Origin: Janthinobacterium sp. Marseille
GTDB lineage: Bacteria > Pseudomonadota > Gammaproteobacteria > Burkholderiales > Burkholderiaceae_D
NCBI RefSeq assembly: GCF_000013625.1
Contig: NC_009659.1
Location: 4,046,252-4,110,251 of the forward strand
Direction: 5' to 3'
DNA: 64,000 bases
Within the stretch, counting starts at the first letter, position 1. Every line of letters begins with the position of its first letter. The position numbers and the translations under genes were made by a program. Below, piece after piece: positions 37,549 through 42,002 of this stretch. Under the pieces are notes generated by a model. It ran no database searches and was not told the DNA's origin. It worked only from the letters and a program-made list of their open reading frames with translations.

Positions 37549-37722
37549 CTTTGTCTCCTATCGGTCTGATGACCGATTTGTTTTTTTTGAGATACTCACG
37601 GGTCTTCTTATGTTTTCAAGCTGTATTGCAAACGATGTATACCCTCCCCTTTCTGCCAGATACTGTTTGTCGTCCTGATGACGGACGTCACATCAACAGA
37701 CCTTGCAACAGACATCCTGGAT

Positions 37723-38400
37723 TTATTGACAGGTTTCTTCCGCAAGTGAGGCCGGCTCGAAGGAAGCTGAGGTTGGAAAAATCCCCGACATGACGGTGAA
37801 TCCGGGGATGCGTTTGACACGGTCCAGCCAGCGTCGTACCGCCGGGTAGTCGAGTAGTGAAACGCCGGCTTCATCCGACAATGCGATATACGGGAAGCAG
37901 GCAAGATCCGCGATGGTGGGTGCGGCGGCCGGACATAGCCATTGATGTCCATTTTGTTCCGCCGCCCACAGGTGTTCGTCCAGTATGCGCAGTAGTTCGT
38001 GCGCGCGGGCACGGCATTGCTCTGCATTGAAATCGTAAAAAAACAAATCATGCAAACGTGCAGCGGAAATCGAGCCGGTCAAACCATCGGCAAACGCGAG
38101 CCACATATTTGCCTGGCCGAGGATGGCGGGCGCATGTGTCGGATACCAGGTCAAACTGGTGTCGTATTTGTTCGCCAGGTAAACCAGGATGGCCTGGGCA
38201 TCGCGCAACACGAAATCATCATCGCGCAATACCGGCAACTGGCCGAGTGGATTGATGCGCAGGAAGGCCGGTGATTTATGTTCCCTGGACGGGAAAAATT
38301 CCACTGTCTCTATCGTGTACGGTAGCTTCAGGATGGAAAGGAGCATCCGCACCTTGTAGCAATTCCCCGAGAGTTCATAGTCATAAAGCGTGATCATCAT
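37723..38400 (-). CDS. ndmE: Glutathione S-transferase-like protein (NdmE-type)
   Basis: The 225-residue protein has an N-terminal thioredoxin-like GST domain ('TLYDYELSGNCYKVRMLLSILKLPYTIETVEFFPSREHKSPAFLRINPLGQLPVLRDDDFVLRDAQAILVYLANKY') and an all-helical C-terminal domain. In Pseudomonas putida CBB5 a GST-like protein, NdmE, is a structural component that holds NdmC and NdmD together for N7-demethylation. Length and position next to the ndmC/ndmD-like genes match. An ordinary GST is possible, so the symbol depends on context. Six nt separate it from ndmD. Confidence 0.75.
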   Translation of the reverse strand: MMITLYDYELSGNCYKVRMLLSILKLPYTIETVEFFPSREHKSPAFLRINPLGQLPVLRDDDFVLRDAQAILVYLANKYDTSLTWYPTHAPAILGQANMWLAFADGLTGSISAARLHDLFFYDFNAEQCRARAHELLRILDEHLWAAEQNGHQWLCPAAAPTIADLACFPYIALSDEAGVSLLDYPAVRRWLDRVKRIPGFTVMSGIFPTSASFEPASLAEETCQ

Positions 38401-38406
38401 TCGTCC

Positions 38407-40149
38407 TTATAAATCCAGTTCGAGTTCTTCCGAGATGGCGCGTGACACGCAAGCCATCATGCAGGTATTCGCTGCTTTTTCCTGCGGTGTGAGATAGCTG
38501 TCCCGATGTTCCGGCACACCGCTGCTGACGCGTGTCAGGCAGGAGCCGCATATGCCTTGCTCGCAGGAAGCTTCGACCGGAATGCCATTACGTTTGAGTG
38601 CAGCCAGCAAAGTTTCACCGCGCGGTACGGTGATGGTTTGGCCGTTGCGTTTGAGTTTTACGGTGAAAGGCTTGCCATCACCGAAGTCTTTATCGTTGCG
38701 GAAAATTTCGAAACGCACATCAGCGTCCGGCATGCCGGCTGCCTGGGTACAGGCACGTATTGTGGTCAGCATGGGACCGGGGCCACATGCGTAGACGATT
38801 TGTGGCTGTGAAGATTGCGTCAGCACCTGGTCGAGGATGCTTTTTGTTTCTTGTGGTGTGCATGCGGCATGCAATACCAGTTTGTCCTGGAAGGCTGCCA
38901 TACGACTGGCAAAAGACACATGCTCGTCACTGCGCACAAAATAATGCAGGCGGAAATCCTTGCCTGCGGCATGCAGGGCTTGCGCCATCGAAACCAGCGG
39001 CGTGATGCCGATGCCGCCGGCAATCAATACCGGATACTTCGGCGTATCGAGCAGAGGAAAGGTATTCCGTGTAGGAACGAATTCCAGATGCGTACCAGGC
39101 AACGCACTCGCATGCATGGACGCCGAACCACCACGTGAGTCAGGTTCGAGTTTGACGCCTATGGTCAGGGTCGCCCTTTCAGTCGGGGCATTGACGATCG
39201 AATACTGGCGCACCAGTCCGGAAGGTGTGCGTAGATTGATATGGGCACCGGCTTGCATGGGCGGCAGCTTGCCGGAGATCGAGCGCAGTTCAAAGGCCAT
39301 CACGCCGTCGGATTCTTTCCATCTGCGTAGCACTTCGCAAATGATGGATGCGCTTCCAGCCTGTTTGTTGGGTACGATGAAGCGTATGGGCTTCAATTGA
39401 TCCGTTTGTTCGGTAACTGTTGGCGAACATTCTGCTGCGAGAGTCCGGCGGAGGTCTTCCAGCAGGAAGGCATGATGCTGTCGTACGACTTCGCTGGCAG
39501 ATGCATCGCCGCTTACGGCAGCGTGGACCAGGGTTTTACCGGCGCTGGCGGGCAGCAGGTTGAATTGCACATCAACGGGTCCGGATTCTCCGAGCACGCT
39601 GATCCTGAGTGAGTAAGAAGACAGGTGGCTGACTTCGGCGCTATTGGTCGGCACACTTGTTTCTGCTGCCTTGGGCGAGTATCGATAATGTTCAAGTGCG
39701 GCCCGGACCCGCTCCAGCGGGCCCTGCATGGCGACGCTCCGCAGCACGATTGCCTGCTTCGAAGGGCTTGCTGAAAACTGTGGCTCTGTTGTGTCCGGAT
39801 CGAATGCGGCCCAGACAAAGCCATTTCTTTCGCTCACAGGCAATGTCAGCACGCAGGCTTTGCTGGGTTCGCTATCGTCCCGATGCGCCGGCACGAAGGA
39901 GCAGCCACCATCGCCACTTTCAAAGGACCAGCCGTGATATCGACATTGCAGATCGGTGCCGGTGTTGGTGCCCAGCGTCAGGCGCAAGCCACGATGCGGA
40001 CAGCGGTTTTCCCACACGTTGACGGCACCGGTATCGTCGCGCCATAGCGCCAGTTCATAGCCGAATAACTGCGCATGCGCGACATGGCGGTACGGTAATT
40101 CTGTACTGCGGACCAGCGGGAACCAGCTGCGTGTATCTATATTGTTCAT
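38407..40149 (-). CDS. ndmD: Rieske plus FAD/NAD reductase plus ferredoxin fusion, NdmD-like N-demethylase reductase
   Basis: The 580-residue protein combines an N-terminal Rieske domain (ligands Cys50, His52, Cys69, His72 in 'CPHRGL' and 'CRYHGW'), a middle region with no clear catalytic-iron triad, an oxidoreductase FAD/NAD part ('RQYSIVNAP', 'YPVLIAGGIGITPLVSMA', 'YACGPGPML'), and a C-terminal plant-type [2Fe-2S] ferredoxin ('CEQGICGSC', then a distal Cys). This architecture and size are those of NdmD, which transfers electrons from NAD(P)H to NdmA/B/C and supplies NdmC with its missing Rieske cluster. The gene lies 20 nt after the ndmC-like gene. Confidence 0.85.
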   Translation of the reverse strand: MNNIDTRSWFPLVRSTELPYRHVAHAQLFGYELALWRDDTGAVNVWENRCPHRGLRLTLGTNTGTDLQCRYHGWSFESGDGGCSFVPAHRDDSEPSKACVLTLPVSERNGFVWAAFDPDTTEPQFSASPSKQAIVLRSVAMQGPLERVRAALEHYRYSPKAAETSVPTNSAEVSHLSSYSLRISVLGESGPVDVQFNLLPASAGKTLVHAAVSGDASASEVVRQHHAFLLEDLRRTLAAECSPTVTEQTDQLKPIRFIVPNKQAGSASIICEVLRRWKESDGVMAFELRSISGKLPPMQAGAHINLRTPSGLVRQYSIVNAPTERATLTIGVKLEPDSRGGSASMHASALPGTHLEFVPTRNTFPLLDTPKYPVLIAGGIGITPLVSMAQALHAAGKDFRLHYFVRSDEHVSFASRMAAFQDKLVLHAACTPQETKSILDQVLTQSSQPQIVYACGPGPMLTTIRACTQAAGMPDADVRFEIFRNDKDFGDGKPFTVKLKRNGQTITVPRGETLLAALKRNGIPVEASCEQGICGSCLTRVSSGVPEHRDSYLTPQEKAANTCMMACVSRAISEELELDL

Positions 40150-40169
40150 GTATATCCTCGACGATGGAT

Positions 40170-41021
40170 TCAGTGGGCGGATGCACTGTATGTGCCGTAG
40201 CGCACATGACTGTCGCGCAGCATGCGCCGGTAAGCGGAGGACATCTTGTCTGCGCGCACCGGGTTTTCCTGAAGCGCATCAAGCGGCAGGCGTCGTGGCA
40301 CCTGGTTCACCAGGATCATCAGGTCCTGGCCAAAAATCGTTTGCTGGAAATGGCGTAGTTGTTCATCCGAGCTGATGTCGTCGATATAGACCATGACGGT
40401 ATGGGCGATGCACCAGTCCTCATTGACCGGCTGGATGAACAGGCATAAGGCATCCAGGCGTTCCGGCGACGAGTGGCTGTTTTTGTACAGGATCGCGATA
40501 TAGGGGCGGGCTACCCGGTAGATATAGAGGGTTTCGATACTCCCTTGGGCAATAGCGGAACCTTTGGGTTGTACGAAGCGGCAATTGGTAGCAAGGATTT
40601 CACCCGTCGCTGCATCGACGCTGACGTCATAAGGCAGGACCTCGGTTTGCGGTTCCGCACCCAGGATGTCGGTATGGACAAAGGGGAAGTGCGACATGTC
40701 GAGGAAGTTTTCCACCGCACGCAAACCGGACACATTGAGGCGTATCGAACCGGCACTGACGACACGACGATCAGCTTCGGCAAATTCCGGTAGGGGGAAG
40801 AAGTCGGGAGCAGTTGTTGTTAATGCAACCCATATCGTTGCATAGCGCTCGGTGATGTTGCAGGTGCCGCCATCAGCGCGGCTCACTTCATAAAGCGCGC
40901 CGCGCTTGCAGTATGTGATGGCCACACCGAGCAATTGCGTGTCATACGACAGGTTTTCCCGGATATCGCTGACGACCGCGACCGGGTGCCAATCGCTCCA
41001 AACCGGATCCTTTGCATCCAT
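40170..41021 (-). CDS. ndmC: Rieske-less mononuclear iron oxygenase, NdmC-like 7-methylxanthine N-demethylase
   Basis: The 283-residue protein is the catalytic half of a Rieske non-haem iron oxygenase. The region where the CxH/CxxH cluster should be (residues about 30-65) lacks those ligands, yet the iron-site motif 'VENFLDMSHFPFVHTD' (His111, His116) and the late Asp in 'QDLMILVNQ' are kept. The only such enzyme I know with a separate Rieske donor is NdmC, which removes the N7-methyl of 7-methylxanthine as formaldehyde. I choose the ATG at 41021 (ribosome binding site GGAGACGC); the longer frame to 41135 reaches into the operator region. Substrate is by analogy. Confidence 0.85.
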   Translation of the reverse strand: MDAKDPVWSDWHPVAVVSDIRENLSYDTQLLGVAITYCKRGALYEVSRADGGTCNITERYATIWVALTTTAPDFFPLPEFAEADRRVVSAGSIRLNVSGLRAVENFLDMSHFPFVHTDILGAEPQTEVLPYDVSVDAATGEILATNCRFVQPKGSAIAQGSIETLYIYRVARPYIAILYKNSHSSPERLDALCLFIQPVNEDWCIAHTVMVYIDDISSDEQLRHFQQTIFGQDLMILVNQVPRRLPLDALQENPVRADKMSSAYRRMLRDSHVRYGTYSASAH

Positions 41022-41054
41022 ATTGCGTCTCCTTTGTCTTTTAGTTTTATAAAC

Positions 41055-41064
41055 TGGTATACCA
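41055..41064. promoter_or_regulatory. GntR-type operator before ndmC
   Basis: Perfect palindrome TGGTATACCA, flanked by AAAC and AAAA, 34 nt before the ndmC start. It is the standard half-site layout (TGGT...ACCA) of FCD-type GntR regulators. The GntR gene at 41298 is the obvious candidate to bind it. Confidence 0.6.
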
Positions 41065-41297: not shown

Positions 41298-42002
41298 CTA
41301 TAGCTGCAAGGCAGCGCGCAGATCAATATCCGGCGCGGAGCCTATCTCGAAGCGATAACCTTTTATCACCAGATTATTGTGGGATGCCAGCAATTGTTTG
41401 GCGCGGAAGCTGTCACGTGTTTCCAGTGAATCGACGAGTGCAATATGCTCACCGCGCAAATGACAGTAATCGAAATCGACCTTGTACAAAGCGGTAATCA
41501 AGGCTTCTTTCCGGCGCAGTCGCGCATGCATATTATTCAGCGGTTCGTTTGCCAGGCAACTGATGAGTAGCGTGTGAAAGCCGCGTCCCAATTTGTCGGC
41601 AAGGTCGTGATCCTCGGCCTTGAAGGCGGCATGTTCCTTGGCGGTGTGTTCGCGCAGCATGGCAATTTGTTCTGGTGTAATCGTCTGCATCAGGATGTCG
41701 ACGACGCCGCTTTCGACCACATGCAGTATTTGATACAGGTCGAACGCTTCCTGGAATGACGGATGTGCAACCTGGGACGCCCGTTTCGGTGAAATCGTAA
41801 TCAGCTCTTCCTGTGACAATCGTATCAATGCCTGCCGGATCACGGTTCTGCTGACGCCAAATATCTCGGCAAGCTCGCGTTCATTGAGCTTGGTTCCCGG
41901 CGGCAGGCGTCGTTCGTATATAGCTCCAGAGATGGTTTGTACAATTGTTTGAGTCAGCATAGCTGAATGAATCCTAAATCCAGACCGAGAAAACACTTCC
42001 AT
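41298..42002 (-). CDS. GntR family transcriptional regulator (FCD/FadR type)
   Basis: The protein has the GntR winged helix ('GAIYERRLPPGTKLNERELAEIFGVSRTVIRQALIRLSQEELITI') and an all-helical FCD ligand domain with metal-binding type residues ('DKLGRGFHTLLISC', 'RGEHIALVDSLETRD'). The start is uncertain: ATG at 42002 (234 residues) or ATG at 41960 (220 residues, with AGGATT upstream). It is on the same strand as, and upstream of, the ndm-like genes, with the operator at 41055 in between, so it probably governs them, with a methylpurine or breakdown product as ligand. Target assignment is inference. Confidence 0.85.
   Translation of the reverse strand: MEVFSRSGFRIHSAMLTQTIVQTISGAIYERRLPPGTKLNERELAEIFGVSRTVIRQALIRLSQEELITISPKRASQVAHPSFQEAFDLYQILHVVESGVVDILMQTITPEQIAMLREHTAKEHAAFKAEDHDLADKLGRGFHTLLISCLANEPLNNMHARLRRKEALITALYKVDFDYCHLRGEHIALVDSLETRDSFRAKQLLASHNNLVIKGYRFEIGSAPDIDLRAALQL

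Follow-up and report, generated by a model that had tools for sequence, protein, structure and literature searches.

Does an oxygenase whose iron site and Rieske cluster lie in separate polypeptides serve Janthinobacterium sp. Marseille in the demethylation of methylxanthines and, if so, of which ones? The question is raised by a gene cluster in a stretch of 64,000 nucleotides of this genome (contig NC_009659.1, positions 4,046,252 to 4,110,251), hereafter called the window. The cluster includes, on the minus strand and in this order, genes for a GntR/FCD regulator, for proteins similar to NdmC, NdmD and NdmE of Pseudomonas putida CBB5 and for an NCS2 purine permease, and the operon very probably encodes a methylxanthine N7-demethylase of the NdmCDE type. 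NdmCDE was termed unique among Rieske oxygenases in a review of 2015, in which the closest ndmCDE homologues were listed from Janthinobacterium sp. Marseille, Klebsiella and Pseudomonas sp. TJI-51, with functions unknown (citing Summers 2013). The locus is already in print as an ndmCDE homologue, and the finding itself is not new. The genome-wide picture, the evidence for complementary decay and the palindrome described below were not met in the literature, which was searched, here and throughout, among the open-licence articles of PubMed Central (PMC).

The nearest characterised relative of the predicted catalytic subunit is NdmC of CBB5 (P0026, M1EY73; 58% identity over 98%). A Pfam scan of the protein gave a match to VanA_C and a sub-threshold one to KshA_C, and no match to a Rieske family. 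The CxH..CxxH Rieske motif was also absent from all 120 listed relatives (the best 120 of 2258). D108, H111, H116 and D233 are conserved in 113/113 aligned rows of the NdmC type, of which 110 come from the list of 120 and three are the window protein and its two paralogues; H111, H116 and D233 constitute the iron triad. The original prediction that this protein had kept its iron site (His111, His116) and lost the Rieske ligands was thus borne out.

The predicted NdmC model (predicted local distance difference test score, pLDDT, 88; alignment A2, 67 sequences) matched full-length oxygenases in a Foldseek search, with template modelling (TM) scores, by query length, of 0.79-0.84 for SxtT/GxtA and 0.67-0.71 for NdmA and NdmB. 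Comparison by eye of the strands in the NdmC and NdmD models suggests that the outer sheet of a Rieske domain survives at the N-terminus of NdmC, the loss having affected mainly the part that holds the cluster. In a quick catalytic tree of 88 rows, hand-picked from the listed relatives and loci, all 65 Rieske-less rows formed one clade (98, starred) apart from the full-length oxygenases. The window NdmC was placed in a clade of 8 rows, sister to a clade of 17 rows which includes CBB5 NdmC (joint support 91), and both sit inside a starred clade of 37 rows. The phylogeny, which had been proposed as a check together with a structure-based search, came out in favour of the NdmC assignment.

The Rieske cluster is carried by the partner protein, as had been foreseen. 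The Rieske domain (PF00355) of the NdmD-like protein was found at residues 8-90, and its ligands C50, H52, C69 and H72 are present in 150/150 aligned Rieske rows, in which the window protein is counted twice. The Pfam matches in the C-terminal half, to a flavin adenine dinucleotide (FAD)/nicotinamide adenine dinucleotide (NAD) reductase and to Fer2, agree with the predicted fusion of the Rieske domain to a reductase and a ferredoxin. The protein is 41% identical to NDMD_PSEPU. The third protein contains a Pfam glutathione S-transferase (GST) domain, in accordance with the expected NdmE type, and is identified here, from its sequence, as Gst9 of Janthinobacterium sp. Marseille, the 67.3% identity with NdmE of P. 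putida MT178 comparing with a reported 67.4% between Gst9 and CBB5 NdmE (PMC13237722, of 2026). Gst9 substitutes for NdmE in Escherichia coli, N7-demethylation being obtained with NdmC and NdmD of CBB5, and the structure of the NdmCDE complex is still unsolved (PMC13237722).

In gene order, sizes (283, 580 and 225 amino acids), domain layout and iron and cluster ligands, the window genes resemble those of CBB5 (58% identity for NdmC, 41% for NdmD), as originally predicted. Against the P. putida MT178 ndm cluster (L006), the identities are 58% (C), 41% (D), 67% (E), 69% (permease) and 62% (regulator), and the purine permease noted next to the operon is confirmed by this likeness and by its TIGR03173 match. 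Unlike in CBB5, ndmA and ndmB do not adjoin the window genes, and an NdmB-like gene with its own reductase is found elsewhere in the genome.

In the reaction proposed for the operon, the permease would import a methylxanthine, and the C-terminal half of NdmD, with its flavin and ferredoxin domains, would be reduced by NADH. From there the electrons would move to the N-terminal Rieske cluster of NdmD and, crossing from one protein to the other, reach the mononuclear iron held by H111, H116 and D233 of NdmC; the distance from Rieske cluster to iron is about 12 Å in known oxygenases (PMC12445004). NdmC would use O2 to hydroxylate the N7 methyl group, yielding formaldehyde and xanthine, with NdmE as a putative non-catalytic, GST-like scaffold. 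Xanthine dehydrogenase is encoded in the genome (XdhB, 1297 bits, cut-off 849.5). Strains with ndmCD alone have been proposed to be able to convert 7-methylxanthine (PMC8055839).

Table 1 Features of the ndm locus (positions in the window)
Feature	Position	Strand	Evidence
GntR/FCD regulator	41298..41960	-	Pfam GntR + FCD; 62% over 220 amino acids to L006 regulator
ndmC-like, Rieske-less oxygenase catalytic subunit, 283 amino acids	40170..41021	-	58% to CBB5 NdmC; iron ligands; model; tree
ndmD-like, Rieske + shrunken oxygenase domain + flavin/NAD reductase + plant-type ferredoxin, 580 amino acids	38407..40149	-	
ndmE-like GST, 225 amino acids	37723..38400	-	67.3% over 217 amino acids to L006 NdmE
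NCS2 purine permease (PbuX subfamily), 449 amino acids	36199..37548	-	TIGR03173 526 bits (cut-off 414); 69% to L006 permease
Operator-like palindrome TGGTATACCA	41055..41064	no strand	Exact-match count; sites in other ndm clusters

The ndmC and ndmD genes are separated by 20 nucleotides and ndmD and ndmE by 6. An AAGGAG ribosome site, read directly in the sequence, precedes the ndmC ATG at 41021, and the two closest relatives of the protein are likewise 283 amino acids long. The start of the regulator gene was set at the ATG matching the 220-amino-acid regulator of the MT178 ndm cluster; its Pfam scan was run with 11 additional N-terminal residues. Before the permease gene, an inverted repeat followed by a run of T was seen by eye on the plus strand (37560-37589), which could be a plus-strand terminator.

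The palindrome TGGTATACCA lies 33 nucleotides upstream of the ndmC ATG. Position 41064, where the interval of the original prediction ended, is the end of this palindrome and not that of a gene. The palindrome is the single exact match in the window, against 0.05 expected, and 5 of 100 shuffles contained one. Five other ndm clusters have 11 further sites, and the base preceding the site is C in 12/12 cases. All but one of the 11 outside sites (the exception being L007:27501) have an ndm oxygenase gene, or the TIM-barrel or permease gene that goes with it, within approximately 200 nucleotides. The other loci retrieved, 1.417 Mb in total, contained no site; this set left out the matching loci and those of the own genome and serves as a contrast, not as an independent test. 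TGGTATACCA, common to six ndm clusters, is a candidate GntR operator, and would provide a simple handle on the control of ndm genes; the sequence named as the candidate target of the GntR protein is CTGGTATACCA. A palindrome before the window permease was also considered and rejected, as there was no exact match and matches with two mismatches were at chance level in the window (17, with 15.2 expected). No paper on the regulation of caffeine N-demethylase genes by a GntR protein or operator was found in the literature searched.

The original prediction described the system as lacking NdmA and NdmB, which holds within the window but not in the genome. The assembly consists of one contig of 4,110,251 bases, on which a full-length oxygenase of the NdmA/NdmB type is encoded at 240.6 kb. 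It belongs to a cluster at 236-246 kb (L102:6493-15296, corresponding to 236.5-245.3 kb), which a circular contig would put about 264 kb away from ndmC. This cluster includes genes for S-formylglutathione hydrolase, S-(hydroxymethyl)glutathione dehydrogenase, AraC-type and GntR regulators, the oxygenase, a TIM-barrel protein, a permease (55% identical to the window permease) and a reductase. Both frmA (621 bits) and frmB (439 bits) scored above the cut-off. Compared with the P. putida MT178 cluster (L006), the oxygenase is 60% identical to the gene in the NdmB position and 57% identical to the one in the NdmA position, and its best PDB match was NdmB (485 bits), followed by the NdmA QL mutant (447) and NdmA (443). 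An NdmA/NdmB tree of few rows (8) placed it in a three-way fork. At the positions corresponding to NdmA 282 and 286, which are changed in the PDB entry 'NdmA QL mutant', it has Q and L, as does NdmB. These two residues are said, reportedly in work by Kim in 2019, to set the position of demethylation. Two mutations in NdmA are reported to be sufficient (PMC8055839); a text search of the literature for N282Q/F286L gave no paper.

The 240.6-kb gene thus probably encodes an N3-demethylase, with genes for formaldehyde detoxification nearby. Because of its NdmB-like specificity residues, the predicted diet would comprise theobromine, 3-methylxanthine and 7-methylxanthine. No close N1-demethylase was found in the whole genome, the next best match to NdmA being only 37% identical, and complete breakdown of caffeine is therefore not predicted. 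Alternatively, there may be a single enzyme with broader position specificity. The earlier argument, that growth on 7-methylxanthine rather than caffeine could be predicted from the absence of NdmA and NdmB, does not follow, and the probable N3-demethylase elsewhere in the genome corrects the substrate prediction for Janthinobacterium sp. Marseille. A further full-length Rieske oxygenase, 37% identical to the NdmA-position gene, is encoded at approximately 2.83 Mb (L103:6529-14534), accompanied by two genes that resemble purine permeases and by a reductase.

A Rieske-less NdmC was found in 18 loci (the window, L006-L015 and L105-L111), a sample biased by having been collected by likeness to the window protein. 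A GST-like gene was nearby in all 18 and a Rieske partner in 17, the locus without one (L015) ending at a contig end. The Rieske partner is fused to a reductase, with open frames, in six loci (the window, L006, L007, L108, L109 and L111), and frame-broken in L110; it is unfused in ten (L008-L014 and L105-L107). A separate reductase adjoins only one of the ten unfused loci (L008), although a more distant one would escape notice in L105-L107 (less than 4 kb) and in L011 and L013 (less than 9 kb). At an E value of 1e-40, matches were found in 4 of 369 genomes of the class, the window's own included. The free-standing Rieske protein of the unfused cluster in the same genome, described next, had 382 relatives at E 0.001; among the best 120 listed, 113 were shorter than 270 amino acids and seven were full-length oxygenases.

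One of the unfused clusters lies in the same genome at 1.888-1.897 Mb (L008:9756-15239, corresponding to 1,887,755-1,893,238) and has two catalytic genes. Its order is LysR-type regulator (named from its sequence, with no domain scan), NdmC-like 1, PnrA-like binding protein, reductase, Rieske protein, NdmC-like 2, GST, and ABC ATPase and permeases. Both NdmC-like proteins keep the iron triad, and the Rieske protein (231 amino acids) is 35% identical to NdmD 1-239. This cluster (1.888-1.893 Mb) and those of L009-L014 and L105-L107 share with the window the catalytic family (their proteins being 40-48% identical to NdmC of the window), a shrunken Rieske subunit and the GST, but differ in that the Rieske subunit is not fused to a reductase. 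The cluster on pSymA of Sinorhizobium meliloti (L108) has a fused NdmD-like protein and a GST, as the window does, but carries a pair of NdmC-like genes and, in place of the NCS2 permease, an ABC transporter of the BMP type. On a plasmid of Cupriavidus sp. EM10, an ndm cluster (L110:9666-15285) has broken frames in the NdmA-like, C, D and E genes, from either decay or sequencing error.

Several observations weigh against the window operon being an N7-demethylase of methylxanthines. The window NdmC belongs to a sister clade and does not fall within that of the characterised enzyme; the fused cluster of S. meliloti (L108) and the own-genome clusters L008, L102 and L103 lack the palindrome; and no assay of NdmC or NdmD from the window locus was found in the literature searched. 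With NdmC in a sister clade and NdmD only 41% identical, the substrate may differ. An enzyme acting not on plant methylxanthines but on another N-methylated purine, such as 7-methylguanine or a methylated base released in RNA turnover, would suit this sister position, a host which is a water bacterium with no obvious link to coffee or tea, and the PnrA-like (purine nucleoside type) ABC binding protein adjoining the second NdmC-type cluster. It is nevertheless unlikely, since the permease (69%) and the GntR regulator (62%) have their closest counterparts in an ndm cluster, the palindrome recurs in five other ndm clusters and an NdmB-like gene accompanied by genes for formaldehyde detoxification is present in the genome.

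A purine ring hydroxylase of the HpxD/HpxE kind, for the molybdenum-independent hydroxylation of xanthine or hypoxanthine, is considerably less probable still. The adjoining purine permease and an HpxD-annotated record among the matches of the free-standing Rieske relative (34%) would be consistent with it. HpxD, however, is a full-length Rieske oxygenase with a separate reductase, whereas the window catalytic gene is Rieske-less and the reductase is fused to the Rieske protein; moreover, the tree groups the window protein with NdmC, away from full-length oxygenases, and a molybdenum XdhB is present in the genome. That a broken oxygenase pseudogene, in which no Rieske domain is detected, happens to lie beside an unrelated reductase can be practically dismissed, as it is contradicted by the conservation of the ligands in 113/113 and 150/150 aligned rows and opposed by the open frames, the close gene spacing and the same gene order in other bacteria.

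The comparison of the NdmCDE-type demethylase with its relatives also hints at where NdmCDE arose. Residues 1-244 of NdmD were modelled (alignment A1, 80 sequences) as an entire, shrunken oxygenase subunit, the shrunken domain extending to about residue 244, and the iron ligands of the middle region are not conserved in the NdmD family, in line with the decayed oxygenase domain proposed for the middle of this protein in the original prediction. The VIA-align list for this model is a re-examination of the Foldseek matches and not an independent search. We give an even chance to an origin in which a single full-length oxygenase subunit gave rise to two copies, NdmC and NdmD 1-244, each half decayed and complementing the other; the pair would have arisen once and worked at first as separate subunits. 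In NdmC the stretch of the Rieske domain that binds the cluster would have been lost, and in NdmD 1-244 the iron site, with fusion of the Rieske copy to the reductase coming later. If so, NdmC and NdmD would be expected to assemble into a single mixed ring, where electrons would pass only at the junction leading from a Rieske copy to a catalytic copy and the GST would set the stoichiometry.

Some features of the middle region of NdmD speak against such an origin. Its match to the NdmC profile spans only 52 columns at 12% identity. A D-x2-H-x4-5-H string occurs after residue 115 in 2 of 150 NdmD relatives (P0142 and P0260), both strings being judged by eye to be out of register. D232 of the window NdmD is near the expected place of the Asp ligand, in a column where D or E is found in no more than 23% of 147 rows.

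The Rieske trees (105 rows, 46 of these in a careful tree) and the catalytic tree described above were built from a small number of columns, with rows picked by hand, and contain several long branches; the full-length set (L016-L088, with the Rieske motif in 73/73 loci) was sampled for the trees, not used whole. The split Rieske rows formed one clade against the full-length oxygenases (94, 86 rows; 100/100, 38 rows in the careful tree). The unfused condition is likely to have been the first state, because the sampled full-length oxygenases are not fused to reductases, and the fused NdmD form appears to be a derived branch of a larger split-oxygenase family, for which no paper beyond the 2015 review was found in the literature searched. 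The simpler unfused members of the family could be used to probe assembly and electron path. The 40 fused NdmD rows fell in one clade (99, starred), which includes three unfused rows (L009, L010 and P0165). A clade of fused NdmD only was disfavoured (p-AU 0.022, approximately unbiased test), and the three unfused Rieske proteins inside the fused clade therefore call for either repeated fusion or a subsequent loss of the reductase portion.

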